Source of the DNA: Daejeonella lutea
Lineage (GTDB): Bacteria > Bacteroidota > Bacteroidia > Sphingobacteriales > Sphingobacteriaceae
Direction of reading: 5' to 3'
Length of the DNA: 64,000 bases
NCBI RefSeq assembly: GCF_900168015.1
Contig: NZ_FUYR01000003.1
Location: 248,001-312,000 of the forward strand
A program made the position numbers and the translations under genes. The notes beneath the pieces were generated by a model. That model saw only the letters and a program-made list of their open reading frames with translations, searched no databases and was not told the DNA's origin. Shown one piece after another: positions 8,057 to 55,198 of the stretch; within the stretch, counting starts at the first letter, position 1, and each line of letters opens with the position of its first letter.

Positions 8057-8091
8057 TTTCTCGAATCTCGCATCTCATTTCACAAATCTAT
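8057..8091. repeat. Heptad array (TCTCG dialect), 5 units
   Basis: Five consecutive 7-base units: tttctcg, aatctcg, catctca, tttcaca, aatctat. It fills the gap between the fadN stop and the fadA start. The same dialect occurs at 28927-28968. Confidence 0.7.
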
Positions 8092-8096
8092 CAAAA

Positions 8097-9275
8097 ATGG
8101 AAGAAGCATATATAATAGCGGCTTATCGTACAGCAGTTGGCAAAGCACCCAGGGGTGTATTTCGTTTTACGCGCGCTGATGAATTAGCAGCCGAAGTTAT
8201 AAGGAACTTAGTTGCAGCCGTTCCTAACCTCGATAAAGAAGAAATAGATGATGTCATCGTCGGGAATGCAACACCCGAGGCAGAGCAGGGTCTGAACGTG
8301 GCGAGGATGATATCGTTAATGGGACTTGACACCGATAAGGTGCCGGGAGTGACGGTTAACCGGTACTGTGCTTCAGGTTTGGAAACCATTGCTATCGCTT
8401 CAGCTAAGATCAGGTCGGGCATGGCAGACTGTATAGTTGCCGGTGGTGTCGAAATTATGTCGGGTATGCCTTTCGGCGGATGGAAGCTTGTGCCGAACGC
8501 AGACGTGGCTAAAAACCACCCCGACTGGTACTGGGGAATGGGGCTTACTGCAGAGGCTGTCGCCAAAGAATACAATGTCAGCAGGGAAGATCAGGATGAG
8601 TTTTCTTATAACTCCCATCAAAAAGCGATTGCTGCGATTAAGAATGGTCATCTTAAAGAAGGTGTTCTTCCGATTACCATAAAAGAAAACTACCTGGATG
8701 AAAATCTTAAAAAGAAAACCCGGGAGTATGTGGTTGATACCGATGAAGGGCCTAGGGCGGACACAGCTCTGGATAAGTTAGCCAAGCTTAAACCTGTTTT
8801 CGCTGCGGGCGGATCAGTAACGGCTGGGAACTCTTCCCAAACATCAGACGGAGCTGCTTTTGTCTTAGTTGTTTCAGAAAGCATGCTTAAAAAGCTGAAT
8901 GTGCAGCCAATTGCCAGGCTTGTTAGTTATGGAGTTGCCGGTGTACCACCAAGGATTATGGGCATCGGTCCGATCGAAGCCATTCCGCTAGCCCTTAAAA
9001 AAGCAGGCATGAAGAAAGAAGAGCTGGATCTGATAGAACTTAACGAAGCATTTGCTTCACAATCACTCGCCATTATACGCACTCTCGACCTTAACCAGGA
9101 AGTTTTAAATGTAAATGGAGGAGCAATAGCGTTAGGTCATCCCCTGGGCTGTACTGGAGCGAAACTCTCTGTGCAGCTATTTAATGAATTAAAAAGACGA
9201 GAAAAGAAGTTTGGTATGGTGACGATGTGTGTGGGAACAGGACAGGGGGCAGCGGGGATTTTTGAAATGCTATAG
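8097..9275 (+). CDS. fadA: Acetyl-CoA C-acyltransferase (3-ketoacyl-CoA thiolase)
   Basis: The enzyme cleaves 3-ketoacyl-CoA with CoA to give acetyl-CoA and a shortened acyl-CoA. The catalytic residues of the thiolase family are visible: the nucleophilic Cys91 in NRYCASGLE, the His in ALGHPLGCTGAK, and the second Cys in CVGTGQGAAG near the C-terminus. The 392 residues are the usual length. I chose ATG 8097 (MEEAYIIAAYRTAVGK) because thiolases begin with this strand; the longer reading from 8046 would translate the heptad repeat array. It is the second gene of a fadN-fadA-fadE operon and is followed by an inserted S23-family gene. Confidence 0.95.
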   Translation: MEEAYIIAAYRTAVGKAPRGVFRFTRADELAAEVIRNLVAAVPNLDKEEIDDVIVGNATPEAEQGLNVARMISLMGLDTDKVPGVTVNRYCASGLETIAIASAKIRSGMADCIVAGGVEIMSGMPFGGWKLVPNADVAKNHPDWYWGMGLTAEAVAKEYNVSREDQDEFSYNSHQKAIAAIKNGHLKEGVLPITIKENYLDENLKKKTREYVVDTDEGPRADTALDKLAKLKPVFAAGGSVTAGNSSQTSDGAAFVLVVSESMLKKLNVQPIARLVSYGVAGVPPRIMGIGPIEAIPLALKKAGMKKEELDLIELNEAFASQSLAIIRTLDLNQEVLNVNGGAIALGHPLGCTGAKLSVQLFNELKRREKKFGMVTMCVGTGQGAAGIFEML

Positions 9276-9280
9276 GTTAG

Positions 9281-9308
9281 AACCAGGAGCCAAGAATCAA
9301 GAACCAAG
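9281..9308. repeat. Heptad array (AAGAATC dialect), left arm around the S23 gene
   Basis: Four units: aaccagg, agccaag, aatcaag, aaccaag, beginning five bases after the fadA stop. Bases 9281-9299 pair with 9819-9837 over 19 bases, one of the pairs being G-U in RNA. After one bulged base, 9301-9304 pairs with 9815-9818. Confidence 0.85.
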
Positions 9309-9410
9309 ATGTGTGCCGTAAACTAAATAGTGTATAACTAAAAACATTGAATGTGGGAGTTTGTAAGAGAAGGCGTGTAAATCGTAATATTCTTTTATTT
9401 GAAATTCTCT

Positions 9411-9761
9411 ATGCACAACTTTAAGAAATTAAACATTTGGGTAGATGCCATGATTTTAGCAAGAGAGGTTTATTTTGTAACATCCAAATATCCAAAAGAC
9501 GAAAAATATGGTTTAGTTTCACAAATGAACAGAAGCGTAGTCTTTGTTCCATCTAATATTGCAGAAGGTTCTTCACGATCTTCAGCCAAAGAATTTTCGC
9601 ATTATCTAAAAATAGCATTGGGATCTTTATTCGAATTAGAAACTCAAACAATATTGTCTTATAATTTAAAAATAATGACAGACAGTGATCTTGATCATCT
9701 GTCAGAAAAAAATTCAACACTGCAAAAAATGATCAATGGATTTTTAACCAGTCTAAAGTAG
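9411..9761 (+). CDS. Four-helix-bundle protein, S23 / 23S rRNA intervening-sequence family
   Basis: The 116 residues show the family signature: KLNIWVDAMILAREVY at the N-terminus, the central YGLVSQMNRSVVFVPSNIAEG (close to the family pattern GLxxQxRRAxxSIxxNIAEG), and SAKEFSHYLKIALGSLFELETQ. Members are predicted four-helix bundles. The first were found as ORFs inside intervening sequences of 23S rRNA, and a relative (Avd) serves diversity-generating retroelements. The biochemical role here is unknown. ATG 9411 gives MHNFKKLNIWV, the usual start. The gene interrupts fadA and fadE, is more AT-rich than its neighbours, and lies inside an inverted repeat, which points to insertion. Confidence 0.88.
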   Translation: MHNFKKLNIWVDAMILAREVYFVTSKYPKDEKYGLVSQMNRSVVFVPSNIAEGSSRSSAKEFSHYLKIALGSLFELETQTILSYNLKIMTDSDLDHLSEKNSTLQKMINGFLTSLK

Positions 9762-9819
9762 AGATTTAAACGAGATGCATCTAATTAACCTTTCAGCTCA
9801 TAAAGAATAGGACTGTTCT

Positions 9820-9842
9820 GATTCTTGGCTCTTGGTTCTTGG
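9820..9842. repeat. Heptad array, right arm around the S23 gene
   Basis: Units gattctt, ggctctt, ggttctt plus gg, the reverse complement of the array at 9281-9308. With it the array can form a stem of about 23 pairs around the S23 gene. It ends 20 bases before the fadE start. Confidence 0.85.
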
Positions 9843-9861
9843 ATCAAAAAAACCAATAACA

Positions 9862-11652: not shown

Positions 11653-11678
11653 TTGAAAGCGGAGAGTTGACAGTTCTC
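11651..11678. repeat. Heptad array (AGTTGAC dialect), left arm
   Basis: Units aattgaa, agcggag, agttgac, agttctc, overlapping the fadE stop codon. Bases 11662-11675 pair with 12356-12369 (14 pairs, one G-U). Confidence 0.6.
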
Positions 11679-12350
11679 ACGTCTAGCATACAAAAATACA
11701 CTAAGCCTTATCTTGGCTCGTCCTTAAGGCAAGAAATTTAAGCCTACTGCTTGACTGAGTAAGTGACATATGTTTGTAACAGCTAATGACGTATGCCTTG
11801 GCTCCCGAAATCATCAGCCTTCAGAAGCAATAAGGCTTGTAGTGACCCGTACTTCTGTCTTAGTAGTTTAACTTATTGGTTTGGGGATGGAACTCTTCTC
11901 ACAAGGTCTGAGTCCAGCCCATAGGAGAATCTAATAGCGGTGTGTCTTCAAAAGAAGAAGATTGACGAGTTTTCATGTCTTCCTGATACATTTCATAGAC
12001 CAAGTAGGGGTCTGGTAGGGGTCTTCTTTGGCTATTCTTTGGCGAATGATGCCAAAAACGGCCTTTTACCCAAGCAAGACCCAAAGAAGACCCAAACAAA
12101 AGGCCTTTTTTATACTTATTCCCGATTTGGTACAAAAACCCGATTTAAAGTATAAAATTGATTCATGGGAATTTTAAGATTTCAGTCCGCAAAAGGTGCC
12201 GGTTCTGCAACGAAGCGCAGACTGACAAAGATCAATACACCTGGTTGATTACACTAAGCCGTCTGAAATTTAAATTAGTCGTTCACATGGACTTCCGCAA
12301 TTCTCGTATATAATGGTGGTGTTTTGAATCAGTTAAGTGCCGTTTACTAA

Positions 12351-12385
12351 CTTTCAACTGTTAACTCTCACCTCTCAACTACAAA
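12351..12385. repeat. Heptad array, right arm
   Basis: Units ctttcaa, ctgttaa, ctctcac, ctctcaa, ctacaaa: an exact 7-base period, reverse-complement dialect of the array at 11651-11678. Confidence 0.75.
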
Positions 12386-12467
12386 AAATACAATGCTGTA
12401 CCCACAGCACAGCATGTGTATTTTTTGTTAAATAATGTTAATCCTTACTTTTTCAACTTTAAAAGGA

Positions 12468-12475
12468 TAAATTTG
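12468..12475 (+). promoter_or_regulatory. -7 box of the FKBP operon
   Basis: TAAATTTG matches the Bacteroidota consensus TAnnTTTG exactly and lies 33 bases before the first FKBP start. No TTG is found at the expected -33 distance. Confidence 0.5.
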
Positions 12476-12508
12476 CAACTCTTGTAAAATACAGTAGAAT
12501 AATTTTGA

Positions 12509-12979: not shown

Positions 12980-12987
12980 CGAAACTC

Positions 12988-14481: not shown

Positions 14482-14548
14482 TTTAACCTAAAAGTATTCC
14501 ATCTGGGGTTCACTTCCTCGCAGATTAAGAACCACGATCCGCAATTAC

Positions 14549-15186: not shown

Positions 15187-16605
15187 ATGAGCGGTAAAAC
15201 CATTCTAGTTTGGTTTAGAAAAGATTTACGAATTCACGACAACGAGATATTGACGGAAGCTGTACGGAAAGGCGATACCGTAGTTCCCGTTTATTGTTTC
15301 GATCCGCGGCAGTTTGAGACCACGTCTTTTCAAACACAGAAGACTGGCGCTATTCGGGCGAGGTTCCTGATCGAATGTGTGGCTGATCTTCAGCAATCCC
15401 TACAAAAACTTGGTGCTGATCTCATAATCCGAAAGGGCAAACCTGAGGATATTTTACCAGAGTTGGTAGGTAAATATAATGTCAGCGAGGTTTATCATCA
15501 TCGGGAGGTGGCTTCCGAGGAAACGAGAATCTCAGCCGATGTTGAGAACGCCTTATGGCGCTTGAAGATTAATCTCAAGCATTTTATTGGTCATACGCTA
15601 TATCATAAAGAGGATTTGCCTTTCCCGATAAATAACATTCCAGATGTATTTTCTTCCTTCCGGAAAAAGATTGAGCGGGATAGTTCAGTAAGAAAATGTA
15701 TAGAGTCGCCTGGCCCCTTCAAAATACCTCAAGATATGGAATGCGGTCTATTGCCTTCCTTACCTGATCTTGGATTTCAAGGAATTGGGGATGCCGAGGA
15801 ACGTTCTGTCATGAAGTTCAGAGGGGGGGAAACAGAAGCTTTAAAGCGCATGCATAATTACTTCTGGGAAACCGACGCAATTAAGAATTATAAGCATACC
15901 CGGAACAATTTATTAGGCCCGGATTATTCTTCAAAGTTTTCTGCGTGGATAGCTCTCGGTTGTCTTTCACCGCGTGAAGTTTATTGGGAGATCAAGAAAT
16001 ATGAACAGGAGCGGGGTTCTTCGGATTCTACTTACGCCTTGTATTTGCAGCTGCTTTGGCGGGATTATTTCCGGTTCATGTTTAAGAAGTATGGCAACAA
16101 ATTTTTCCAGAAAATAGGGTTTAAAGGGGTTGCTCCCGAGGAAACTGAAAATCAACAGGATTTCTTTGAGTTTTGGAGAGCAGGAAAGACTGGTATCCCA
16201 TTCGTTGACGCAAATATCCGAGAGCTTAACACCACGGGTTTTATGAGCAACCGAGGAAGACAGAACGCAGCAAGCTTTTTGGTAAGGAATCTCAAAGTTA
16301 ATTGGATGTGGGGAGCGTCGTACTTTGAAGAAAAGCTGATTGATTATTGTCCGGCAAACAACTGGGGAAACTGGGCTTATATAGCCGGAGTAGGGAATGA
16401 TCCTAAAGAGTACCAACATTTCAATGTTTTGAAGCAGGCGCGGGAATTTGATCCTAATGGTGATTATGTGCGAATGTGGATCCCGGAACTTGCAATGGTT
16501 CCAGGTGCTAAGATCCATCAGCCCTGGACCTTGTCAGATCAGGAAGTAAGGGAATATCATGTCGAGGATTATAAAGCACGGCCAGCATTTGCCCCGGAAG
16601 TATGA
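15187..16605 (+). CDS. Cryptochrome DASH / photolyase family
   Basis: A 472-residue FAD protein that in this subfamily repairs cyclobutane pyrimidine dimers, chiefly in single-stranded DNA, using blue light. The N-terminal photolyase domain starts KTILVWFRKDLRIHDNE and contains the DASH-type segment GHTLYHKEDLPF. The C-terminal FAD domain shows FMSNRGRQNAASFLVRNL, then WGASYFEEKLIDYCPANNWGNW and AGVGNDPKEYQHFNVLKQA, all described in part. This last block separates DASH proteins from class I photolyases. A heptad array overlaps the stop codon. No folate-synthesis or second photolyase gene is adjacent. Confidence 0.9.
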   Translation: MSGKTILVWFRKDLRIHDNEILTEAVRKGDTVVPVYCFDPRQFETTSFQTQKTGAIRARFLIECVADLQQSLQKLGADLIIRKGKPEDILPELVGKYNVSEVYHHREVASEETRISADVENALWRLKINLKHFIGHTLYHKEDLPFPINNIPDVFSSFRKKIERDSSVRKCIESPGPFKIPQDMECGLLPSLPDLGFQGIGDAEERSVMKFRGGETEALKRMHNYFWETDAIKNYKHTRNNLLGPDYSSKFSAWIALGCLSPREVYWEIKKYEQERGSSDSTYALYLQLLWRDYFRFMFKKYGNKFFQKIGFKGVAPEETENQQDFFEFWRAGKTGIPFVDANIRELNTTGFMSNRGRQNAASFLVRNLKVNWMWGASYFEEKLIDYCPANNWGNWAYIAGVGNDPKEYQHFNVLKQAREFDPNGDYVRMWIPELAMVPGAKIHQPWTLSDQEVREYHVEDYKARPAFAPEV

Positions 16606-16680
16606 TCAGTATTCGGTGGTCCGTAATCAGTATGCAGTAATTAGTGATCAGTAATCGGGTAATCGGCGATCAGGTAATCA
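16604..16680. repeat. Heptad array (GTAATCA dialect), 11 units
   Basis: Eleven units with exact 7-base spacing (gatcagt, attcggt, ggtccgt, aatcagt, atgcagt, aattagt, gatcagt, aatcggg and three more). It starts inside the cryptochrome stop codon. An inverted partner lies at 16742-16769. Confidence 0.85.
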
Positions 16681-16741: not shown

Positions 16742-16769
16742 ACTGATTACTGATTACTGATTACCACTT
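16742..16769. repeat. Heptad array, inverted partner (ACTGATT x 3)
   Basis: Three identical actgatt units plus accactt. It is the reverse-complement dialect of 16604-16680, with a spacer of about 60 bases between them. The two arrays can base-pair in several registers of about 10 bases. Confidence 0.8.
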
Positions 16770-16854
16770 ACTTTTCCCTCACGCGGTCAACACAAGTGTT
16801 ACATGCTAATTTCAAATTAGCGCCTACTTATTACCGATTCTATCCTTAAAATCT

Positions 16855-20931: not shown

Positions 20932-20939
20932 ATAGTGAT

Positions 20940-20967
20940 ACGTTGTACGTAATACGTTTTACGTTAC
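20940..20967. repeat. Heptad array (ACGTTGT dialect), 4 units
   Basis: Units acgttgt, acgtaat, acgtttt, acgttac, starting eight bases after the sucB stop. The same dialect flanks the lpdA-crtZ gap. Confidence 0.85.
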
Positions 20968-20970
20968 TGG

Positions 20971-21016
20971 CCTAACGCACAAAGCCCGCTGATCTTCAGC
21001 GGGCTTTGTGGTTAGG
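20971..21016. terminator. Long hairpin after sucB
   Basis: A perfect 15-base stem (CACAAAGCCCGCTGA, 20978-20992, with 20996-21010) closes a 3-base loop. It is extended by CCTAAC/GTTAGG (20971-20976 with 21011-21016) with one bulged base. It lies between convergent genes and probably ends transcription from both sides, although no strong T-run follows on either strand. Confidence 0.8.
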
Positions 21017-21099
21017 CTGTAATGTTGTCAGTCCAGACTTCAATAAGGTGGTACTTCGGAAGGAAATCCCAATCCTCCAATCCTACTCTTTGCTCTTAA

Positions 21100-21837
21100 T
21101 TAAAGTTTAGATATTCTACCCGAGCCGCTCTTAGACGACTTAACATCAGCACTTCCGCTGTATCTGATATTTCCAGATCCGCTCATGGCTGCTTCCAGTG
21201 ATTTATTCGCGTTAACAGAGATATCTCCTGAGCCGCTTACCCTGGCGCTCGTTACGTTGGTTCGGAGGCTATTACCCTCAAAACCTCCCGAGCCATTTAC
21301 ATTTATCTTCGCATTTTCGGCCCTGCCGCTTGCCTTAATTTCTCCAGATCCACTAATGGTGGCTAAATAGTTTGTTGCATCAACCGTAAGGGTAATACTT
21401 CCCGATCCGCTTAGAGTGGTGGTTACGTCAGACGATTTAACGGTGCCTTTGACATTTATGTCGCCAGAACCACTGAGTGTGATGCTTTTTAAGGATTTAG
21501 CGTTCACATAAATGTTGACCTTTCCACTCCAGCTATTTTTCCAGCTTCCGGTGCTTTTTTTATTCCTAATCTTCAGAATGCCATTTTCTACTACTGTTTC
21601 AATATCTGCTATCTGATCCGCATCTCCTTCAAGCTTCAAGCTTTCAGTATTTCCCATAGTTATGGTAACATTGTAGCTGCCGGCTGATGTGATTCCTGTA
21701 AAGCCGGAAACATTTCGGGTTTCATCAGCTACAGATTTTGTGCTATTTACCACCGTGATCAATGCGGCATAAGAGTCAACATGGGAACTGGCTACCAGTA
21801 GGGCCAGGATAGCGAGGTATGTTTTAAAAACTTTCAT
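21100..21837 (-). CDS. DUF2807 exported protein (head GIN domain)
   Basis: The 245 residues begin with a signal peptide (MKVFKTYLAILALLVASS, cleavage near residue 24). The rest is a DUF2807-type beta-helix, seen as repeated GSGDI, GSGSI, GSGEI and GSGNI turns spaced 15-25 residues apart. These secreted or periplasmic proteins are common in Bacteroidota. A role in adhesion or in the envelope stress response has been suggested but is not established. The gene is single and convergent with sucB across the long hairpin. Confidence 0.88.
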   Translation of the reverse strand: MKVFKTYLAILALLVASSHVDSYAALITVVNSTKSVADETRNVSGFTGITSAGSYNVTITMGNTESLKLEGDADQIADIETVVENGILKIRNKKSTGSWKNSWSGKVNIYVNAKSLKSITLSGSGDINVKGTVKSSDVTTTLSGSGSITLTVDATNYLATISGSGEIKASGRAENAKINVNGSGGFEGNSLRTNVTSARVSGSGDISVNANKSLEAAMSGSGNIRYSGSADVKSSKSGSGRISKL

Positions 21838-29005: not shown

Positions 29006-30409
29006 ATGCAATTCGACGTAATAGTTATTGGTAGTGGTCCGGGCGGATATGTTGCCGCGATTCGTTGTGCTCAGCTGGGCTTGAAAACAGCAGTTGTTGA
29101 AAAATATAGTACCTATGGCGGTACCTGTCTGAATGTTGGCTGTATTCCATCGAAAGCCCTTTTGGATTCATCTGAACATTACCATAATGCATTGCATAAT
29201 TTTAAAGAGCATGGTATTAACCTGAAAGATCTGAAGCCAGACCTTAAACAGATGGTTAAACGTAAAGATGATGTTGTTGCCCAAACAACCGGTGGAATCG
29301 CTTTCCTGTTTAAGAAAAATAAGATCACACCATACCAGGGTATGGGCTCTATGGTCGACAAGAACACAGTGAAGATCACGAAGGCGGATGGTACAACAGA
29401 AAATATAACAGGTAAGAATGTCATCCTGGCAACAGGCTCAAAGCCTACAGAACTACCATTCCTTAAAACGGATAAGAAAAGGATCATCACCTCAACAGAG
29501 GCATTAAACCTGAAAGATATACCTAAGCACCTGATTGTGATAGGTGGTGGAGTAATTGGACTTGAGTTAGGATCTGTATATGCAAGACTAGGTTCTAAAG
29601 TGACTGTGGTAGAGTTTATGGACTCGATCATCGGCACTATGGATAAAGGTCTAGGCAAAGAGCTGCAAAAAGTTCTTACCAAGCTGGGAATGGAATTCCT
29701 GCTTAGCCACAAAGTAACAGGAGCTACGGTTAAAGGAAGTAAGGTCACAGTAACCGCCGATAGTCCGAAGGGCGAAAAAGTTAGTATAGAAGGTGATTAT
29801 TGTATTGTTGCTGTGGGTCGTACGGCTTATACAGACAGCCTGGGCTTGGAAAATATCGGTATAACCCTTGAAGAGCGCGGCAAAAAGATCCCGGTGAATG
29901 AACATCTTGAAACTTCCGTTGAGGGAATATATGCCATTGGTGATGTGGTTAAGGGCGCTATGCTCGCCCACAAGGCTGAGGATGAAGGCACCTACGTTGC
30001 TGAACGTATTGCAGGACAAAAACCTCATATAAACTACAACCTGATTCCGGGCGTTGTGTATACATGGCCGGAAGTAGCCAGTGTAGGAGAAACCGAAGAG
30101 CAATTGAAAGAGCGCGGCGTTAAATACAAGTCAGGATCTTTTCCATTCAAAGCCAGTGGCAGGGCCCGTGCAAGTATGGACCTGGATGGATTTATCAAGG
30201 TTCTTGCAGATGTGGACACCGATGAAATTCTTGGTGTACACATGATTGGACCAAGAGCGGCTGATATGATTGCCGAAGCAGTAGTTGCGATGGAATTCAG
30301 AGCTTCTGCTGAGGATATTGCTCGCATCTCCCACGCACACCCGACTTTTACTGAATCGTTCAGAGAAGCGGCGATGGCAGCCACGGAGAATAGGGCGATC
30401 CATATGTAG
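29006..30409 (+). CDS. lpdA: Dihydrolipoyl dehydrogenase (E3)
   Basis: This flavoprotein disulfide reductase reoxidises dihydrolipoamide of 2-oxoacid dehydrogenase complexes with NAD. The 467 residues show the FAD motif VIGSGPGGYVAAI at the start, the redox disulfide in GGTCLNVGCIPSKALL (Cys40 and Cys45), the NAD motif VIGGGVIGLELGSVYARLG, the second FAD motif YAIGDV, and the catalytic His-Glu of the partner subunit in HAHPTFTESF. It is probably the E3 for SucA-SucB 8 kb upstream, and perhaps for pyruvate dehydrogenase. A heptad array follows its stop codon by four bases. Confidence 0.96.
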   Translation: MQFDVIVIGSGPGGYVAAIRCAQLGLKTAVVEKYSTYGGTCLNVGCIPSKALLDSSEHYHNALHNFKEHGINLKDLKPDLKQMVKRKDDVVAQTTGGIAFLFKKNKITPYQGMGSMVDKNTVKITKADGTTENITGKNVILATGSKPTELPFLKTDKKRIITSTEALNLKDIPKHLIVIGGGVIGLELGSVYARLGSKVTVVEFMDSIIGTMDKGLGKELQKVLTKLGMEFLLSHKVTGATVKGSKVTVTADSPKGEKVSIEGDYCIVAVGRTAYTDSLGLENIGITLEERGKKIPVNEHLETSVEGIYAIGDVVKGAMLAHKAEDEGTYVAERIAGQKPHINYNLIPGVVYTWPEVASVGETEEQLKERGVKYKSGSFPFKASGRARASMDLDGFIKVLADVDTDEILGVHMIGPRAADMIAEAVVAMEFRASAEDIARISHAHPTFTESFREAAMAATENRAIHM

Positions 30410-30413
30410 TTGT

Positions 30414-30441
30414 ACGTTATAAGTTATACGTTGTACGTAAG
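30414..30441. repeat. Heptad array (ACGTTGT dialect), left arm
   Basis: Units acgttat, aagttat, acgttgt, acgtaag, four bases after the lpdA stop. Bases 30423-30438 are the exact reverse complement of 30544-30559. Confidence 0.9.
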
Positions 30442-30543
30442 CACAGCGAACTATGCGCACCGTTTCTTGCAGTATAACATTATACCTGGAACAGCTTTTA
30501 GTAACATATAACAGAACCTAATACTTAGCACCGCGTTTAGTAA

Positions 30544-30571
30544 ACGTACAACGTATAACGTACAACGTAGA
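30544..30571. repeat. Heptad array, right arm
   Basis: Units acgtaca, acgtata, acgtaca, acgtaga. A perfect 16-base inverted match with the array at 30414-30441. It ends four bases before the crtZ ATG, so a stem in the RNA could reach the ribosome site. Confidence 0.9.
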
Positions 30572-30575
30572 ACTG

Positions 30576-34903: not shown

Positions 34904-34980
34904 AAGTATCAATATCAAGTAGCAAGTATCAAGTAGCAAGTATCTAGTATCAAGTATCTAGTATCAAGTATCAAGGAGCC
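34904..34980. repeat. Heptad array (AAGTATC dialect), 11 units
   Basis: Eleven units in exact 7-base register, mostly agtatca, agtatct and agtagca, starting four bases after the stop of RidA paralogue 1. The same dialect and orientation recur after paralogue 2. Confidence 0.95.
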
Positions 34981-35041
34981 AGACTGGTGCACTAACCAAT
35001 CGTTTAGACCCTAATGTCAAACTCCTAAAACCTAACCTAAT

Positions 35042-35581: not shown

Positions 35582-35584
35582 GTT

Positions 35585-35626
35585 AGTATCTAGAATCAAG
35601 TATCAAGAATCAAGAATCAAGACCAG
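35585..35626. repeat. Heptad array (AAGTATC dialect), 6 units
   Basis: Units agtatct, agaatca, agtatca, agaatca, agaatca, agaccag, three bases after the stop of RidA paralogue 2. Confidence 0.9.
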
Positions 35627-35777
35627 GGCGGTTTAACGACCAAAGGGCACGTAAGAGTTAATGCTTATTATATACCTCAGCGTAGGAAGAGCGTAGGACG
35701 GAGCCGGCTTAGTGAGGTCTTAATCAGTCCTAGACTTTAGTTTCACCGCTCATAGAAGATTCTAGTTGCTTTTTATG

Positions 35778-35814
35778 ATAAAAGGCCTTCCAATAGTCCT
35801 GAAAGGCCCTTTAT
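35778..35814. terminator. Bidirectional terminator-like hairpin
   Basis: ATAAAAGGCCTT (35778-35789) pairs with AAGGCCCTTTAT (35803-35814), 11 of 12 positions, with a 13-base loop. It lies between the convergent RidA and DUF4476 genes; T-rich flanks occur on both sides. Confidence 0.65.
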
Positions 35815-35838
35815 GTTATGTGACATTAACTGCTTTGC

Positions 35839-35880
35839 TTCAGACTTCCGACTTCTGTCCTCAGTCTTCAGACCTCAAAT
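35839..35880. repeat. Heptad array (TTCCGAC dialect), 6 units
   Basis: Units ttcagac, ttccgac, ttctgtc, ctcagtc, ttcagac, ctcaaat. It runs into the stop codon of the minus-strand DUF4476 gene. The same dialect sits at the same place after the minus-strand TonB receptor (55157-55198). Confidence 0.9.
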
Positions 35881-39095: not shown

Positions 39096-39980
39096 ATGAA
39101 AAAGATAGTGCTGTCGCTTTTACTATGTTCTCAGTTTGCCTTTGCACAGCAGACTAACCAGTGTGGGATTTTAATTCCGCCACCATCACTCATAAATAAT
39201 TTTCTGAACGTGTATGAGGCTGGGGCATATGTACGGACGATCCTTGATAGTGTAAACTGGCAGAAAAATTTCACCCTGCAGGAGCAGACCGGTATTAATA
39301 ATGCTTATGCGACAATTATAAATAACAGGCGATTTATCATCTATGATAACAGATTCCTGACTGCTCTGGATCAGTATTCAAATACCAAGTGGGCTTCAAT
39401 TAGCGTGTTAGCTCACGAGATTGGCCATCACTACGAAAATCACCTTGTATCCGGCAACGGAAGTACTCCAGCTAAAGAGCTTGAAGCTGATTACTTCTCT
39501 GGTTACGCTTTGGCCAAGATAGGTGCGAGTCTCAGCGATGCGACAGCGGCGATGTCGAAGATATCTCCTGTTCAGGGAAACTCGAGCCACCCGGGAAGAG
39601 CCGCACGGGTGGATGCCATTCAGAAAGGCTGGTACTATGCCAAAGGAGTCAATACTACAGCAACCACAAAAGCACGCCCGCCGGTGCCGCAACCGCAACA
39701 AAACCCACCACCGCCTGCCGCTGAAAGCGGATGGATCAATCTATCTTTATATGGCAATAACGCGATGACGGTATATCTTTCAGATGACGGCCGGAACTTT
39801 AGTCCGGTTGCGATGAAAACCACCCAGCCCTTTGTGTTTAAATATGAGATCTATAACTACGGGTTTTTGAGACTGGTAAACAGCCCGAATGCTGTAACCT
39901 ACAAATTGATGCACAATAAAGATTACTCGATCATCTGGAACAGGAAGACGAATAACTGGACGGTTGTTGAGGTTAAATAG
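39096..39980 (+). CDS. Exported M48-like metalloprotease
   Basis: A 294-residue protein with a signal peptide (MKKIVLSLLLCSQFAFAQ). The zinc site is SVLAHEIGHHYENHL, with His107 and His111, and the third ligand Glu lies in KELEADYFSGYALA (about 128-130). This HExxH...ExxAD spacing is that of M48 and related peptidases. No membrane segments are seen, unlike HtpX. A Pro-rich linker (about 195-213) leads to a C-terminal domain of about 75 residues of unknown type (GWINLSLYGNNAMTVYLSDD). The role is not known; it may be an envelope protease. Confidence 0.82.
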   Translation: MKKIVLSLLLCSQFAFAQQTNQCGILIPPPSLINNFLNVYEAGAYVRTILDSVNWQKNFTLQEQTGINNAYATIINNRRFIIYDNRFLTALDQYSNTKWASISVLAHEIGHHYENHLVSGNGSTPAKELEADYFSGYALAKIGASLSDATAAMSKISPVQGNSSHPGRAARVDAIQKGWYYAKGVNTTATTKARPPVPQPQQNPPPPAAESGWINLSLYGNNAMTVYLSDDGRNFSPVAMKTTQPFVFKYEIYNYGFLRLVNSPNAVTYKLMHNKDYSIIWNRKTNNWTVVEVK

Positions 39981-39981
39981 T

Positions 39982-40037
39982 AGTAAGTACTAAGCAGTAA
40001 GTATCAGGTATTAAGTATCAGGTATTAAATATCAAGA
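39982..40037. repeat. Heptad array (AAGTATC dialect), 8 units
   Basis: Eight units in exact register (agtaagt, actaagc, agtaagt, atcaggt, attaagt, atcaggt, attaaat, atcaaga). It fills the whole gap from the protease stop to two bases before the next start codon. Confidence 0.9.
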
Positions 40038-40039: not shown

Positions 40040-40237
40040 ATGCCATGGTATAATGGGGATTTCCCGCCACCATATAAGAACCAGCCAGTGAAGCTCAGAA
40101 ACAAGGCGGTTGAAATTGCCAATGCGCTTTTGGAGGAAGGGGCTGAAGAGGGGATTGCTATCGCCACTGGCCTTAAGCGGGCGAGGGAGTTTTTTATGAG
40201 AGAAAAGAGTAATAAAAAAGCAAAAAACAAAGAATAA
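40040..40237 (+). CDS. Small YdaT-like protein
   Basis: A 65-residue cytoplasmic protein. MPWYNGDFPPPYKNQPVKLRNKAVEIANALLEEG with EGIAIATGLKRAREFF (in part) closely resembles the small Bacillus YdaT family, whose function is unknown. The second half is helical and the C-terminus very basic (KSNKKAKNK). The overlapping minus-strand reading frames lack any family signature. A heptad array occupies its 5-prime leader up to two bases from the ATG. Confidence 0.75.
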   Translation: MPWYNGDFPPPYKNQPVKLRNKAVEIANALLEEGAEEGIAIATGLKRAREFFMREKSNKKAKNKE

Positions 40238-40298
40238 AGACGGGAAGTATAGTTCACGCCAAAGCGTAATCTTGTAAATCCGCAATCCTATATCCTAG

Positions 40299-46161: not shown

Positions 46162-46235
46162 TCCCGAGTAGCTCAGCCGGTTAGAGCATCTGACTGTTAA
46201 TCAGAGGGTCGCTGGTTCGAGCCCAGCCTCGGGAG
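46162..46235 (+). tRNA. tRNA-Asn (GTT)
   Basis: A full cloverleaf: acceptor TCCCGAG/CTCGGGA, D stem GCTC/GAGC, anticodon stem TCTGA/TCAGA around the loop CTGTTAA with anticodon GTT at 46196-46198, T stem GCTGG/CCAGC with TTCGAGC loop, and discriminator G at 46235. The 3-prime CCA is not encoded. A hairpin terminator follows at once. Confidence 0.97.
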
Positions 46236-46242
46236 CAAAATG

Positions 46243-46270
46243 AAAGCCTTACAGAGATGTAAGGCTTTTT
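46243..46270 (+). terminator. Terminator of tRNA-Asn
   Basis: AAAGCCTTAC (46243-46252) pairs with GTAAGGCTTT (46259-46268) around AGAGAT, followed by a T-rich tract. An almost identical copy lies at 46387-46414. Confidence 0.85.
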
Positions 46271-46334
46271 CTTTTTAAGACTTTTCGTAGCGACATGGAT
46301 TAGGACATTTGTATTTGTTCCTGCACTTGCGGCA

Positions 46335-46478
46335 TTAATCAGAGGGTGGCTGGTTCTCCCGTATCTACGGGATCGGAAGCAAAATGAAAGCCTTACAGAG
46401 ATGTAAGGTTTTTTCGTTTCAAGGATTTTCTTAGCGACGTGGATAAGGTCATCGGTATCCAGTCCCGCACGTGTGGGA
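46335..46478. repeat. Decayed copy 2 of the tRNA-Asn 3-prime half and terminator
   Basis: Begins TTAATCAGAGGGTGGCTGG, as in the anticodon loop and arm of tRNA-Asn. It carries the same AAAATGAAAGCCTTACAGAG terminator and a diverged tail. The T arm is broken by a substitution (TCTCCCGTATCTACGGGATC), so no tRNA can form. It lies 138 bases after copy 1. Confidence 0.85.
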
Positions 46479-46519
46479 TTAATCAGAGAGTGGCTCGTTC
46501 GAGGCCCAACTCGGGAGAT
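46479..46519. repeat. Decayed copy 3 of the tRNA-Asn 3-prime half
   Basis: Begins TTAATCAGAGAGTGGCTCG and ends in CCCAACTCGGGAGA, matching the tRNA-Asn 3-prime half with scattered changes. It lies 144 bases after copy 2. The terminator copy is missing. Confidence 0.75.
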
Positions 46520-46550
46520 TGTTTAAAGGCAATTCAGCATCACCTTGTCA

Positions 46551-47896: not shown

Positions 47897-47914
47897 ATTT
47901 CTCACCTTTGTCCT

Positions 47915-48472: not shown

Positions 48473-48488
48473 AAAAATTTAACATAGT

Positions 48489-48510: not shown

Positions 48511-48523
48511 TAGACAAAACATT

Positions 48524-49171: not shown

Positions 49172-49226
49172 TTCAGACAAACTGTAAACGTCCCTGGTCC
49201 CTATTCTTTGTCCGAATTTACATTCC

Positions 49227-50360: not shown

Positions 50361-50891
50361 GGTTGGGAGTGGAGAATTAGAGCGTGAAATAGTATTGGCT
50401 CTGGCCGTTCGCAATTGCCATGCTCAATGGATTATGCTCATTGCACCTTCTCTGAATAATATTTCTCAAATATTATATTCCTCTCTTCGGGGAGCCTAGT
50501 AACTGACAGGTGGAAACACACAACACTTTTCTAAAAACCGCACGAAAACCGCAAAATTTATCTCATCTCTCGGGTACTCTCTAAATACTGCTTTAACACT
50601 GAGATCACACTCTCTAAGTACTGAGATAAGAACTCAGTGTGGCTGCAATCTTTTGCTGTTTTGATAGAAGTTTAGTGATTTTTGCTGTTTTTTGCGCCCC
50701 CTGAAAAACATGCTGTTTAATGGTTTTAAAAATGGATGGCAAGCGGGTGAATTAGTTGCCACTTTTCTCACGCAAAAGACCAAAATTCTAAGCTCATCTT
50801 CTCGTTTTGCTTGATGCCACAGAAAATCTATAACTAATTAATAATCAGAGATATAAATATCATTAAATCCTCAAAAATCTGTCTTTTTTTC

Positions 50892-50922
50892 TTGTGATTA
50901 TCAATCGTTTTTTGTATCTTAT
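50892..50922 (+). promoter_or_regulatory. Candidate promoter of the structured leader
   Basis: TTG at 50892-50894 and TATCTTAT at 50915-50922 are 20 bases apart. The second is a partial match to TAnnTTTG, so this is a tentative call. Confidence 0.3.
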
Positions 50923-51060
50923 AAGGTGCAGGATTGCCTGCTCGTTCTTTGAAATCTTGGAATTTTATCACCTTAAGGGAGGTGCATTTATCATAAGGCG
51001 AAAGCCTTTCTATCATATTTGAAAGCACCGGATGTTTCCGGAAACTTCCGGTGCTTTTCA
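50922..51060 (+). promoter_or_regulatory. Structured leader or small RNA with competing hairpins
   Basis: Segment TAAGGTG (50922-50928) pairs with CACCTTA (50969-50975) around a hairpin GCAGG/CCTGC (50928-50941). The same CACCT can instead pair with AGGTG (50980-50984). GGTGC (50981-50985) can pair with GCACC (51026-51030), which is the foot of a long terminator-like hairpin, 51023-51033 with 51048-51058, with an inner GTTTCCGGAAAC palindrome. A hairpin AAGGC/GCCTT lies at 50995-51009. The T-tract is only four bases. Switch-like behaviour is inference; it could also be an independent small RNA. Confidence 0.45.
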
Positions 51061-51074
51061 AGATTACCTTACTC

Positions 51075-51097
51075 TTATTTATAATTATTCTAAATAA
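51075..51097. promoter_or_regulatory. Fur-box-like palindrome
   Basis: Arms TTATTTATAAT and ATTCTAAATAA around a single T match at 10 of 11 positions. TCTAAATAA recalls Bacteroidota Fur boxes, and a partial second copy (ATCTAAATAAG) lies just before the start codon near 51145. The downstream siderophore receptor supports an iron-dependent role. Confidence 0.55.
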
Positions 51098-51159
51098 TTT
51101 GCATTTGTCAGATGACTCTCTTTTCTTTGTCGCTGTTTATAATCAATCTAAATAAGAAA

Positions 51160-53547
51160 ATGAGAAAGATACTTTTACTTTTATTATGCGTAATCACACT
51201 GGGGGTAGATTCCCTCACAGCTCAGCAGCTCTTAGGTGAGCTTCGCGGCAAAATCACCACGTCCGATGGACTTCCTGCAGGATTTGTTTCTATTGGGATC
51301 AAAGGATTAAATACGGGCACCCTTTCTAAAGAGGACGGAACCTACAGGTTAGTCAGGTTAAGACCCGGAAGATACACCATCAAGGTAAGCGCTCTTGGCC
51401 TGGAAGCACGTGAACAGGAAGTTACCGTTCAGGCGGGTAAAACCATTCAGACAGACTTTGTATTGACTGAGAATGCCCAGCGCTTGAAGGAGATTGTCGT
51501 TACCGGATTTCAAAAGCCCTATAACACTGATGTTCCTTCATCAAGCTTAAGGCTCAATCAGCCGCTAAAGGAAGTTCCTCAAAATATACAGGTAGTTACC
51601 TCGGGTACCTTGTCTGATCAGCAGGTCATCAGCATGAGCGATAACCTGATCAGAAACGTCAGTGGTGCTACCCGGCTTGAGCACTGGGGCGATATGTACA
51701 CCAATATCACCATGCGGGGCTCGCAGATCCAGGCGTTCAGAAATGGTTTCAATGTGGTGAGTTCTTTCTGGGGGCCCCTTACCGAAGACATGAGTTTTGT
51801 TGACCGCATTGAATTTGTTAAAGGCCCTGCGGGCTTTATGCTCTCTCAGGGTGATCCAAGCGGATTGTATAATGTAGTTACTAAAAAACCTACCGGCCAG
51901 ACAAAGGGAGAAGCCAGTCTAACTCTTGGAAGCTACGATCTGTTTAGGACCGCGCTCGACCTTGACGGGAAGCTCAGCAAAAGCGGAAAGCTCTTGTATA
52001 GGCTCAATGTAGCTGCTCAGAACAAGGGATCGCACAGGGCTTATGAGTATAATAATCGCTACAGCTTTGCACCCGTGCTATCCTATCAGCTAGATGAGAA
52101 AACCAAGCTTACCGCTGAATACACCATGCAGTACGCTAAAATGTCAAATGTGGGCTCGTACTATGTATTTGGAACAAATGGCTATGCAACTCTTCCTGTT
52201 GGCTTCACCATGATGGCTCCCGGACTGGAACCAACCAGGATCAAAGACCATAGCGGATTGCTTTCACTGGAGCATGCTTTCAGCAGCAAGTGGAAACTGA
52301 ATGCCCAGGCAAGTTATTTCAACTACGGGCAGGTTGGTTCATCCATGTGGCCTGTATCGGTTGCTGCAGACGGGAAAATAGTTAGAGGTCCCAGTATTTG
52401 GGATGCAAAGAGCGAAATGGCTATGGGTCAGATGTTTCTTACGGGAGATGTAACTACCGGAGCAGTACGTCACAGAATTCTGTCGGGATTAGACGTAGGT
52501 AAAAAAGATTACATGGCCGATTGGGGACAGTACCACAACCTTGACGAAGCAGGAGGGGAGTTTGATGTGAACAACCCGAATTATGGTGTTCCTAGTAATG
52601 GTTTTCCGGTATGGGATCGTTCAAAAGGCATTGAAGAGCGGGCTGTATTGGCTGGCGGCTTAATGGATCAGAGGTATACTGGATTGTACCTGCAGGATGA
52701 ACTGGGCTTCCTGGAAAACAAGCTGAGGCTGACATTAGGCGGGCGCTATACCTTTGTTTCCCAATCATCCTGGGGTGGTGCAGCTATTGAAGCAAAGCAT
52801 TTTACACCACGATTGGGGATCAGTGCATCAATTGATAATCAGACATCCATATATGGCTTATATGATCAGGCCTTTACGCCGCAAAACGGTCGTTTGGCAG
52901 GTGGCGGCGACGTGAAACCTATTACGGGAAACAATATTGAATTTGGAATAAAGAATGATTGGTTTGGAGGTTCATGGAATACAACCCTCGCAGCTTATCG
53001 AATACTTAAAAATAACGAGCTAACAGCGGATCCGAATAGTCCGCCAACCTCGGGTTTGAGTATCGTACTTGGTGAAAAGAAATCAGAAGGAATTGAATTC
53101 GACCTACGGGGCGAAGTGTTTAAAGGACTGAATCTGGTGGCAAATTATGCCTATACCAATGCGCGTGTCACTGAAGTTTCCCCAGGTGTTACCTCGGTAA
53201 GTGTGGGAGATGTGATACCAGGATATGCAAAACATGTAGTCAACAGCTGGCTCAACTACCGCATCCAGTCAGGCTTTTTAAAGGGTGCGGGAGCTTCGGC
53301 TGGCTTCACCTATCTCCTTGACCGGGCAACAGACACATGGAGTGATACCGATGTAAGGCTACCTGATTTCTTCAGGCTTGATGCCGGATTGACCTGGCAG
53401 AAGGACCGTATCAACATCACTGCTAATGCATTCAATGTGTTGGATAAGTACTTATATAGCGGCTCGTATTATACCTGGTTGAACGCCTTTTACTGGCAAA
53501 CCGAAGCTCCGCGGAATTTCCGTATGAGCGTTGGCTACAAGTTCTAG
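51160..53547 (+). CDS. TonB-dependent siderophore receptor
   Basis: A 795-residue outer-membrane receptor for ferric siderophores. A signal peptide (MRKILLLLLCVITLGVDSLTAQ) is followed by a CarboxypepD_reg-like domain (about 25-108) that is common in Bacteroidota receptors. The plug domain starts near LKEIVVTGFQKPY (TonB-box-like) and contains ITMRGSQIQAFRNG and FVDRIEFVKGPAG. The beta-barrel ends with the C-terminal aromatic residue in FRMSVGYKF. The start is placed at 51160 to begin the signal peptide. The PepSY gene follows after one base. Confidence 0.92.
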   Translation: MRKILLLLLCVITLGVDSLTAQQLLGELRGKITTSDGLPAGFVSIGIKGLNTGTLSKEDGTYRLVRLRPGRYTIKVSALGLEAREQEVTVQAGKTIQTDFVLTENAQRLKEIVVTGFQKPYNTDVPSSSLRLNQPLKEVPQNIQVVTSGTLSDQQVISMSDNLIRNVSGATRLEHWGDMYTNITMRGSQIQAFRNGFNVVSSFWGPLTEDMSFVDRIEFVKGPAGFMLSQGDPSGLYNVVTKKPTGQTKGEASLTLGSYDLFRTALDLDGKLSKSGKLLYRLNVAAQNKGSHRAYEYNNRYSFAPVLSYQLDEKTKLTAEYTMQYAKMSNVGSYYVFGTNGYATLPVGFTMMAPGLEPTRIKDHSGLLSLEHAFSSKWKLNAQASYFNYGQVGSSMWPVSVAADGKIVRGPSIWDAKSEMAMGQMFLTGDVTTGAVRHRILSGLDVGKKDYMADWGQYHNLDEAGGEFDVNNPNYGVPSNGFPVWDRSKGIEERAVLAGGLMDQRYTGLYLQDELGFLENKLRLTLGGRYTFVSQSSWGGAAIEAKHFTPRLGISASIDNQTSIYGLYDQAFTPQNGRLAGGGDVKPITGNNIEFGIKNDWFGGSWNTTLAAYRILKNNELTADPNSPPTSGLSIVLGEKKSEGIEFDLRGEVFKGLNLVANYAYTNARVTEVSPGVTSVSVGDVIPGYAKHVVNSWLNYRIQSGFLKGAGASAGFTYLLDRATDTWSDTDVRLPDFFRLDAGLTWQKDRINITANAFNVLDKYLYSGSYYTWLNAFYWQTEAPRNFRMSVGYKF

Positions 53548-53548
53548 T

Positions 53549-54676
53549 ATGACTATCAGAAAGGCAATTGGAAAAGTTCACTTATGGCTCGGACTGGCGT
53601 CCGGGCTGTTTGTATGCTTTCTTGGAATTACAGGCTGTATCCTGGCATTTCAACGTGAGATTGAAGATGCGACGCAATCGTATCGGTTTACGGAAGTTCA
53701 AAAAAAGCAGGTACTTGCTCCATCTGCTTTAAAAGCAATCGCCGATAAGGAATTACCTGGCAAATCAGCACACAGCATTGGCTATGAGCCCGGCAGATCC
53801 TCCATGGCGGTTTATTACGATGCCCTTCCCGAAGAATATTATTATATAGTTTATCTGGATCCTTATAGCGGGAAAGTTCTTAAAGTAAAGAACATGGAAG
53901 ATGACTTCTTTCGAATCGTCATTATGGGCCACTATTATCTCTGGCTTCCACCTGAGATCGGTCAGCCTGTACTTACAACCGCCACCCTTATCTTCCTGAT
54001 CCTCATGATCAGCGGAATTATACTTTGGTGGCCGAAGCATAAGGCCGCAGTTAGACAGCGGTTTTCAATTAAATGGAATGCAAAGTGGAAGCGAGTCAAT
54101 TACGATCTGCATAATGTTTTTGGTTTCTACATGACCTGGGTAGCCATCTTTGTTGCCTTAACTGGTATGGTGATGGGCTTTCAGTGGTTCAGAACTTCGG
54201 TGTACTGGGCTGCATCAGGCGGAAAGCCTTTAGTGGAATATTATGAGTCTTTTAGTAAGGCGCCCGCAACTAAGACCGAAGCGCCGATACCTGCGGTAGA
54301 CAGGCTTTGGTACCAGGTGCAGCAAGAGTTTCCAGGCTTTGAGGGAAGCATTGAGATGCACCCTCCGGAGGATGATAAATCGGTACTTGAAGTGGCGATG
54401 AACCCCACTACAGATACGTACTGGCGCTACGACTACAGGTTCTTTGATCAGCATACTTTGCAGGAATTAAAAGTAGACCATGTGTACGGCAGGTTCGCAG
54501 ATGCTACAGTTGCTGATAAATTACTTCGCATGAACTACGATATCCACGTTGGTGCAATAGGAGGACTTACAGGTAAGATCATTGCATTCTTTGCAAGTTT
54601 GATCGCAGCTAGTTTACCAGTGACCGGCTTTTTGATTTGGCTGGGTAGGAGAAGGAAAGCCAGACTCTCAACTTAG
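53549..54676 (+). CDS. PepSY-associated membrane protein (iron-uptake reductase type)
   Basis: A 375-residue inner-membrane protein with four membrane segments: about 9-33 (HLWLGLASGLFVCFLGITGC), 130-155 (TATLIFLILMISGIILWWP), 190-212 (FYMTWVAIFVALTGMVMGF) and 335-360. The His residues HLWLG and HNVFGFYM are typical of the PepSY_TM group, which is thought to reduce ferric siderophores at the membrane. Its coding sequence begins one base after the receptor stop, so the two are surely one operon. Confidence 0.9.
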   Translation: MTIRKAIGKVHLWLGLASGLFVCFLGITGCILAFQREIEDATQSYRFTEVQKKQVLAPSALKAIADKELPGKSAHSIGYEPGRSSMAVYYDALPEEYYYIVYLDPYSGKVLKVKNMEDDFFRIVIMGHYYLWLPPEIGQPVLTTATLIFLILMISGIILWWPKHKAAVRQRFSIKWNAKWKRVNYDLHNVFGFYMTWVAIFVALTGMVMGFQWFRTSVYWAASGGKPLVEYYESFSKAPATKTEAPIPAVDRLWYQVQQEFPGFEGSIEMHPPEDDKSVLEVAMNPTTDTYWRYDYRFFDQHTLQELKVDHVYGRFADATVADKLLRMNYDIHVGAIGGLTGKIIAFFASLIAASLPVTGFLIWLGRRRKARLST

Positions 54677-54677
54677 T

Positions 54678-54902
54678 TCAGTTGTTTTCAATCTGCCCAC
54701 TAATAAACGCCAGTTCTTCAACAGTAAGGGCTTTGCCTTCTTTATTCTGCCACCTCCCGTTCTGATGCCGTTGAATGACAGATAATAAGTCTCCATCCTT
54801 TATGAGATGAAATTCGGAATGGTCAGTTTGGTGTTCAGCGAACACATCTATACGGTCACAGCTATGAAAAGACTGTGGGCAGGCAATTTCGAAGGAAGTC
54901 AT
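54678..54902 (-). CDS. Small protein of unknown function
   Basis: A 74-residue soluble protein without signal or membrane segment. Features: two Cys in ACPQSFHSCDRIDVF, a DGDLLSVIQRHQNGRW core and a helical C-terminus (VEELAFISGQIENN). It resembles short conserved Bacteroidota proteins, but I cannot name a family. It ends two bases after the PepSY stop on the opposite strand. Confidence 0.65.
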   Translation of the reverse strand: MTSFEIACPQSFHSCDRIDVFAEHQTDHSEFHLIKDGDLLSVIQRHQNGRWQNKEGKALTVEELAFISGQIENN

Positions 54903-55004
54903 TTAATTGAGCGTTAATGCTCAATGATAGTGAAATAAAGCTTACAGCGATAAGCAAGCGTGAAAAAGATATACACACTTTATCCACTAAGAGTATTTCG
55001 TACT

Positions 55005-55032
55005 AAGTAGCAAGTATCAAGTATCAAGTATC
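55005..55032. repeat. Heptad array (AAGTATC dialect), 4 units
   Basis: Units aagtagc, aagtatc, aagtatc, aagtatc in exact register, the same dialect as 34904-34980. Confidence 0.9.
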
Positions 55033-55104
55033 AAGATCGCCGTACCTGATGTGATAAAGGAGTGGTCAGCGGAAGAGAATGTTGCCGGACATAAGGGATT
55101 AATC

Positions 55105-55132
55105 AAAAAGCCCTGCAATTACAGAGCTTTTT
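55105..55132 (-). terminator. Terminator-like hairpin after the TonB receptor
   Basis: AAAAAGC (55105-55111) pairs with GCTTTTT (55126-55132), and CTG (55113-55115) with CAG (55122-55124), around CAATTA. T-runs occur on either strand, so it may work in both directions. Confidence 0.65.
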
Positions 55133-55156
55133 AATCATTCCAAGTGTCGGAATCCC

Positions 55157-55198
55157 ATCAGACTTCCGACCTCCGACATCTGGCTTCCGACCTCAGAC
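55157..55198. repeat. Heptad array (TTCCGAC dialect), 6 units
   Basis: Units atcagac, ttccgac, ctccgac, atctggc, ttccgac, ctcagac, two bases from the stop codon of the minus-strand TonB receptor. Confidence 0.9.

Follow-up and report, generated by a model that had tools for sequence, protein, structure and literature searches.

The stretch analysed here, called the window, comprises 64,000 nucleotides of the Daejeonella lutea genome (contig NZ_FUYR01000003.1, positions 248,001 to 312,000; G000:C7:248001-312000 within a 4.03-Mb genome of 10 contigs). Its intergenic DNA carries arrays of tandem 7-base units in several sequence variants, or dialects. An earlier note on this DNA attributed the arrays to a process that writes 7-base steps at transcript ends, and overlooked that they pair as left and right arms and that one such pair in the window encloses a gene (9411-9761). 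The product of this gene belongs to the 23S rRNA intervening sequence protein (IVP) family, scoring 114.3 bits against PF05635 (curated cut-off 33.8), and 2gsc was the only solved relative found for it. The arms of the window, with the gene and two short boxes lying just inside arms, are as follows.

8059-8089, minus strand: lone right arm in the GAGATNN dialect (TCTCG in the earlier note), between HADH-like and thiolase-like genes, found by eye
9279-9309, plus strand: left arm of the window's IVP element, AAGAACC dialect
9411-9761, plus strand: IVP gene, 116 aa, found by profile match (PF05635 23S_rRNA_IVP; TIGR02436 four helix bundle protein)
9823-9845, minus strand: right arm of the IVP element, AAGAACC dialect inverted
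12349-12380, minus strand: lone right arm, AGTTGA-type dialect
16604-16680, plus strand: left arm, AGTAATC dialect, starting at the stop codon of the gene that ends at 16605
16742-16771, minus strand: right arm, AGTAATC inverted; inverted-repeat score 17 with the left arm
20935-20965, plus strand: left arm, ACGTTGT dialect, followed by a terminator-like hairpin
30403-30443, plus strand: left arm, ACGTTGT dialect
30533-30540, minus strand: box B (CTAAACGC on the minus strand), just inside the right arm
30543-30573, minus strand: right arm, ACGTTGT inverted; inverted-repeat score 24
34904-34982, plus strand: lone left arm, AAGTATC dialect
35584-35622, plus strand: left arm, AAGTATC/AAGAATC dialect
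35838-35877, minus strand: right arm, AAGTCGG dialect, mismatched to the left arm of its region (inverted-repeat score 6)
39979-40035, plus strand: lone left arm, AAGTATC-like
54993-55035, plus strand: left arm, AAGTATC dialect
55041-55046, plus strand: box C (CGTACC), just inside the left arm
55158-55200, minus strand: right arm, AAGTCGG dialect, mismatched to the left arm of its region (inverted-repeat score 5)

In five loci of related genomes, an inverted pair of arrays likewise encloses a small gene, which corresponds to PF05635. The family is matched in 52 of 60 near genomes and in 75 of 99 genomes across the phylum (both counts include the window's genome), as well as in 8 of 13 cyanobacterial genomes, seven of them over the cut-off. 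The 153 distinct IVP loci compared here were taken from the best-scoring matches listed and are a non-random draw with many orthologues: 11 come from the window's genome and a second Daejeonella genome (G013), whereas the genus contributed 47, other relatives 31, wider Bacteroidota 48 and cyanobacteria 16 (L161 and L114 are one place). Among periods of 5–13, the dominant period of their flanks was 7 at 110 loci, 8 at 19 and 6, 9 or 11 at one each. Upstream of the gene, segments scoring at least 12 were found at lag 7 in 81 of 150 cases and at lag 8 in 10, with 0–3 at each of lags 4–6 and 9–12; downstream, the corresponding counts were 79 of 152 at lag 7, 18 at lag 8 and 1–6 at other lags. Matched inverted heptamer arms, an arrangement in which complementary sequences enclose an open reading frame (ORF) as in the intervening sequences (IVS) of 23S rRNA, surround 8 of the 9 IVP genes of the window's genome, 50 of 89 in nearer kin (own genes included), 5 of 16 in cyanobacteria and 64 of 153 overall, compared with 5 of 685 other genes of the own genome and none of 97 small genes in other Bacteroidota (37 stretches, L337-L373).

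Two properties of the samples bear on these and later counts. In the sample of the own genome, 13 of 40 stretches had been picked partly near AAGTATC matches, and this dialect is over-represented in the counts by region type, orientation, stop-side edge, dialect match, box and arms against other genes; such stretches are excluded only from the lag counts on a grid of 27 evenly spaced 20-kb stretches (57,325 intergenic bases, all outside the window) and from the own-genome figure in the comparison with IVP-free genomes. The gene caller was home-made and trained on the window's genome, yet applied to other species too, namely in the matched-arm controls, the orientation, edge and box counts in G013 and kin, and the comparison of regions between the window and G013.

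The IVP gene is kept under purifying selection (median dN/dS 0.105, highest 0.24, in 26 pairs), and IVP proteins are mildly basic (median pI 8.7). Octamer rather than heptamer arms flank IVP genes at several loci of other Bacteroidota and cyanobacteria (L322, L223, L315, L240, L255, L258 and L249), and at L008:2613-3527 a row of gene-less hairpins with a common inner stretch lies beside an IVP gene.

The two arms of an element resemble each other. For the 86 elements with both heptamer arms, similarity was 0.773 within elements and 0.513 between elements in unrelated contexts (0.518 without reverse complementation), and the within-element value exceeded the 95th percentile of the between-element values in 64 of them. 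The same is seen at a single locus, upstream of the thiolase-like gene, where 17 IVP elements were found, 14 of them two-armed and from 14 genomes, with units that include GAGTATT, GAGATGT, TAGTTAG and CAGATAA; here arm similarity was 0.648 between elements and 0.843 within an element, a value that none of 10,000 permutations attained. At this locus the two arms have changed in concert.

It is the clade of the IVP protein, and not the host, with which unit sequence and unit length go. When two IVP genes lie in unrelated contexts, they share a dialect (similarity at least 0.65; this threshold and those of 0.70 and 0.72 were our own choice) in 92% of 12 cases at a protein distance below 0.5, in 76% of 25 at 0.5–1, in 31% of 45 at 1–1.5 and in 4% of 1783 beyond 3.5. 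Over 5307 pairs, dialect similarity and protein distance gave a Spearman coefficient of -0.187 (Mantel, 1 of 999 permutations). Unit lengths were called from the best lag (score at least 10, lead at least 4, both set by us), and on the IVP protein tree, a quick one built from few columns in which near-copies favour clustering of labels, lengths 7 and 8 required 7 changes, compared with 18 for shuffled labels, with 0 of 500 shuffles as low. One clade of 10 IVP proteins holds seven 8-base elements, three without an assigned length and no 7-base element, and the eight heptamer IVP elements of the window's genome use eight different units (by eye). A slippage step set by the host does not account for seven of the 14 genomes grouped (G082, G092, G108, G135, G143, G160 and G165), which hold both 7- and 8-base elements on different IVP genes; dialect and length go instead with the enclosed gene.

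An array can be assigned as a left or right arm because its strand orientation follows the side of the intergenic region on which it lies. In the own sample, G-strand and C-strand arrays numbered 55 and 10 in the left half of regions but 9 and 46 in the right (Fisher p 2e-14), strand being undecided in 8 of 128 arrays. The rule is valid in convergent, tandem and divergent regions alike, and is repeated in G013 (left 30:9, right 3:34) and in 11 other loci of kin (left 17:5, right 1:10). It does not bear out a process at transcript ends, since orientation is the same in all three types of region and the right arms of IVP elements often end beside a start codon. The 88 array-bearing regions comprise 21 simple left-right pairs, 53 with one oriented array, 5 with a single undecided array and 9 other mixtures. 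An inverted-repeat score of at least 13 was found for 23 of 34 left-right combinations; arms of mixed dialect occur within one region at 35584-35877 and 54993-55200. Array density per kb of intergenic DNA was highest in convergent regions (2.95), with 1.38 for tandem and 0.50 for divergent ones (all 41 records).

The periodicity itself is well beyond chance. Tandem Repeats Finder returned period 7 at 34904-34975 (10.4 copies), 55005-55035, 30405-30438, 30543-30573, 35588-35622, 16742-16764 and 9279-9309, and period 14 at 16603-16656; the lag scan gave 16 lag-7 segments scoring at least 10 in the window, one of them (21627-21643) within a called gene and another (40199-40240) mostly within a short called ORF. 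Both methods recover the arrays where the earlier note had placed them and confirm the exact 7-base register it described, as well as its several dialects; its figure of at least seventeen arrays is about right at this low threshold (the 16 segments plus 8059-8089, seen by eye). In the grid, 32 intergenic segments scored at least 14 at lag 7, compared with 0–1 at each of lags 3–6 and 8–10 and 6 at lag 11, while multiples of 7 (14, 21, 28 and 35) gave 27, 19, 14 and 9. Each of ten dinucleotide shuffles of the grid intergenic DNA yielded no lag-7 segment; 480 kb of coding DNA contained five. Lag 11 is the second commonest short period in the genome's intergenic DNA, and 11-base arrays lie in the window at 284-329, 12004-12043 and 12068-12099, the 12004/12068 pair being inverted by eye.

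Linkage of the arrays to stop codons in this genome is real but moderate. Ten arrays had been said to start within ten bases of a stop codon, which is nearly right: 8 of the 13 window arrays scoring at least 12 do so, or 9 if 34904 is taken from its Tandem Repeats Finder start. Across the own sample, the stop codon is no more than 15 bp away from 66% of 102 stop-side edges, against 43% for random placement, and the start codon from 14% of 74 start-side edges, against 29%. Two further sets, for which there is no null, gave 79% of 52 and 73% of 30 for stop-side edges and 45% of 42 and 55% of 22 for start-side edges. A strong terminator-like hairpin (20966-21020, z -9.3) follows the ACGTTGT arm at 20935; terminators were considered, but such a hairpin, which follows one window array, is not a general feature.

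Most arrays are found away from IVP genes, and most of these gene-less arrays share dialects with the gene-bearing copies. In the own genome, 84 of 115 oriented arrays away from IVP genes match one of its eight heptamer IVP dialects (similarity at least 0.72); sets of eight drawn at random from other Daejeonella (57 IVP elements) account for 44% on average, and 0 of 1000 such sets reached the own mean dialect similarity. L169, a broken IVP copy, has arms of the ACGTTGT type, and the fragment L171 has an array of the GAATTAC type; both fall below the coverage rule for the 153 loci. Dialects are also unevenly spread among genomes. The 14-base double unit GAGTATTGAGTATT (at most one mismatch, overlaps counted) occurs 128 times in G014, 115 times in G015 and twice in the own genome, 3 and 2 times in the IVP-free G001 and G006, and only 0–7 times in five IVP-bearing genomes (G004, G007, G008, G009 and G013), and the AAGTATC double unit occurs 155 times in the own genome and 0–15 times in the other 19 Daejeonella. 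Relatives differ in their number of lag-7 arrays: G013 has 11 in 160 kb (compared with 43 in 540 kb of the own grid), and six genomes without an IVP match, two of them Daejeonella, contain one in 360 kb. Eight IVP-bearing genomes outside the genus gave 0–4 lag-7 arrays in 60 kb each (20 kb for one).

Comparison of the spacers of gene-less pairs gave short matches, which pointed to boxes just inside the arms. These boxes occur inside 44 of 120 gene-less arms and outside 1 of 120, as counted on the same own-genome data on which they were defined. In 76 arms of G013, boxes A, B, C and D were found inside 5, 5, 4 and 2 arms and outside 0, 2, 0 and 1; in 33 arms of eleven other loci of Daejeonella kin, none was found inside or outside. 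A 23-nt core is present twice in the own genome and eight times in G013, with none in the remainder of the 20 Daejeonella genomes.

The same loci differ between species. The region before the thiolase-like gene was compared in 17 Daejeonella genomes: 13 have an open or nearly full IVP gene there, G007 and G008 have a decayed one, G001 has no array, and the window's genome has the lone right arm, with no IVP match in 8029-8096. Twelve intergenic regions compared between the window and G013 comprise six with no array in either, two with an array in G013 only and four with arrays in both, one of the four (pair 9276-9410) being a mispairing around the IVP gene. At 16606 and 20932 the orthologous arrays of the two genomes, compared by eye, share a dialect and differ in unit number and make-up.

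These observations are best explained if the arrays are, as we think probable, terminal arms of small intergenic elements that consist of an array, an IVP gene and an inverted array of the same dialect, together with more numerous gene-less, one-armed and mixed derivatives. Such elements would be mobile, now or formerly, the IVP copy being autonomous and the gene-less pairs resembling miniature inverted-repeat transposable elements (MITEs). Binding by the IVP protein to these 7- or 8-base units, either in RNA or in single-stranded DNA, may be what ties their length and dialect to the protein, while slippage would add or remove units and joint copying or mutual correction would keep the arms alike. 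Insertion after stop codons may be favoured as the least harmful site for a transcribed hairpin. If arms and gene form one element, the role of the IVP family becomes testable.

Several observations weigh against this interpretation. A single array is present in 58 of the 88 array-bearing regions, 11 of the 34 left-right combinations match poorly (score at most 9), and two arm pairs of the window fold as RNA no better than shuffles (z -0.86 and -0.98). Matched heptamer arms surround only 9 of 48 IVP genes of the wider phylum, 21 of the 153 IVP loci lack a clear flank period, and in 4 of the 8 IVP-bearing genomes from other genera the stretches scanned contain no array of lag 7 or 8. As to the gene-less arrays, 31 of 115 fit no own IVP dialect (AAGTCGG and CGAGAAA among them), and the best random set of IVP elements explains 0.74 of them, compared with 0.73 for the own set. 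IVP arms seldom have boxes inside them (6 hits in 196), so simple loss of the gene from the IVP copies found does not account for the gene-less ones. Differences in presence and absence were seen between species only, and no insertion enzyme was identified in searches limited to the RVT_1 and Y1_Tnp families.

A bolder form of the proposal, which we regard as possible but doubtful, is a widespread class of mobile elements that need no transposase. In it, a small pentameric protein would recognize a 7- or 8-base code in the arms of its own element, keep the register and bring about the copying of arm pairs to sites after stop codons, whether or not the gene goes with them. If true, such a class would account for the heptamer repeats that have been reported without a source in Bacteroidota and cyanobacteria and also for the role of an orphan protein family, and would be a natural case of a protein reading a period written in DNA as 7 or 8.

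Alternatively, nothing moves: the arms would serve the host as RNA stems for regulation or processing at gene ends (RNase III sites, terminators or mRNA stabilizers), with IVP genes as passengers or regulators. In favour of this, arms covary at the thiolase-like locus, the arms of IVP elements occupy the space from stop to next start codon, RNase III is reported to cut the stems of rRNA IVS (PMC4990558), and one window array is followed by the terminator-like hairpin. We nevertheless consider this unlikely, as most array-bearing regions hold one array only, the two window pairs do not fold better than shuffles, pairs are present in divergent regions too, presence varies between species, and one dialect recurs at many unrelated loci of a genome while being rare in its kin.

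Plain heptanucleotide microsatellites, made de novo after stop codons by slippage with a preferred 7-base step, are a quite unlikely source. Unit numbers do vary between orthologous arrays, many arrays are solitary, and a survey cited in PMC4679880 is said there to place heptanucleotides at the top of long repeats in most genomes of the surveyed class, with slippage proposed. Set against this are the fixed left and right orientation, the matching of arms across a gene, the tie between dialect and IVP protein in unrelated contexts, the coexistence of 7- and 8-base elements in one genome and the near absence of arrays from IVP-free kin. Slippage may alter the number of units; pairing, orientation, dialect and gene are left unexplained by it. 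The orientation rule and the IVP link, provided that they hold in an unbiased survey, exclude microsatellites as the full explanation. Slippage at transcript ends was likewise rejected as a full account, on the orientation rule, the IVP link and the presence of 7 and 8 in one genome.

It is very unlikely that the arms are a non-autonomous element moved in trans by a reverse transcriptase or a transposase of the Y1 type associated with repetitive extragenic palindromic (REP) sequences (RAYT), with the IVP gene as hitch-hiker: gene-less arms have their own short boxes, the 23-nt core is common to the own genome and G013, and IVP proteins weakly resemble Avd of diversity-generating retroelements (PMC10053308), but RVT_1 is found in 3 of 20 Daejeonella (own, G013 and G015) and in none of the GAGTATT-rich G014, G017 and G011, and neither the window's genome nor G017 has a Y1_Tnp match, other transposase families not having been searched. 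Neither RVT_1 reverse transcriptases nor Y1 transposases are supported as a common source of mobilization in trans.

The proposed elements share features with several known systems. Like the IVS of 23S rRNA, they have a PF05635 ORF between complementary sequences able to pair; the Coxiella IVS is reported as 428 nt long and excised by RNase III, and a relative in the family as a toroidal pentamer of four-helix bundles, the family's function being given as not known (PMC4990558). The copies examined here differ in lying between protein genes (the window copy is flanked by two, and is not inside an rRNA gene), in having stems made of 7- or 8-base arrays, and in being accompanied by many gene-less arrays. 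The window's tandem 7-base units beyond chance also agree with heptanucleotide microsatellites, known as short tandemly repeated repetitive (STRR) sequences or long simple sequence repeats (LSSR). Arrays of that class, as it is understood here, have no larger structure around them, whereas those described here have an orientation rule, inverted partners and a gene.

The closest published case is that of the TAACTGA heptamers of Bacteroidota and cyanobacteria, which show 7-nt indels between Cyanothece strains and for which translational control or rearrangement has been proposed (MacGregor 2015, PMC4679880). They too, like STRR and long heptanucleotide repeats, are 7-base direct repeats in intergenic DNA of these phyla. 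TAACTGA is doubled in the flanks of 3 and single in those of 27 of the 153 IVP genes; the terms 'intervening', 'S23' and 'four helix' are absent from the text of PMC4679880, and the parts of that article consulted do not mention IVP genes enclosed by inverted arms of matching dialect. Searched by title and abstract, the open-access literature gave no link between heptamer or octamer arrays and IVP genes.

With MITEs and REP/RAYT hairpins the arrays have in common dispersed, short, gene-less inverted pairs. As in MITEs, these may share ends with an autonomous copy in the same genome: 84 of 115 gene-less arrays have a dialect of the own IVP elements, but inner boxes differ. The arrays are unlike these systems in that the arms are arrays of variable length and a transposase gene is lacking; the RAYT-type Y1 transposase (PF01797) has no match in the window's genome and at least one in 13 of 20 Daejeonella. 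Avd and PF05635 are reported to be related (PMC10053308), and the window IVP protein matches the Avd profiles PF22296 and NF033474 weakly (E 8.9e-5 and 8e-4, both below the curated cut-offs). A reverse transcriptase gene is not adjacent as in diversity-generating retroelements, since the RVT_1 match of the genome lies at C10:8371-9093 and the window IVP gene on C7. A survey of CRISPR-linked systems also lists the 23S rRNA IVP in one of its figures (PMC10910872); we speculate that IVP arm arrays might pass as repeat arrays in such surveys.

Two further observations concern the window. Between 34420 and 35581 lie two adjacent genes whose proteins are similar by eye, each followed by an AAGTATC-type array. 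Rfam matched only a tRNA in the window, and a 144-bp tandem duplication (46229-46500) starts from the end of tRNA-Asn (46162-46236).

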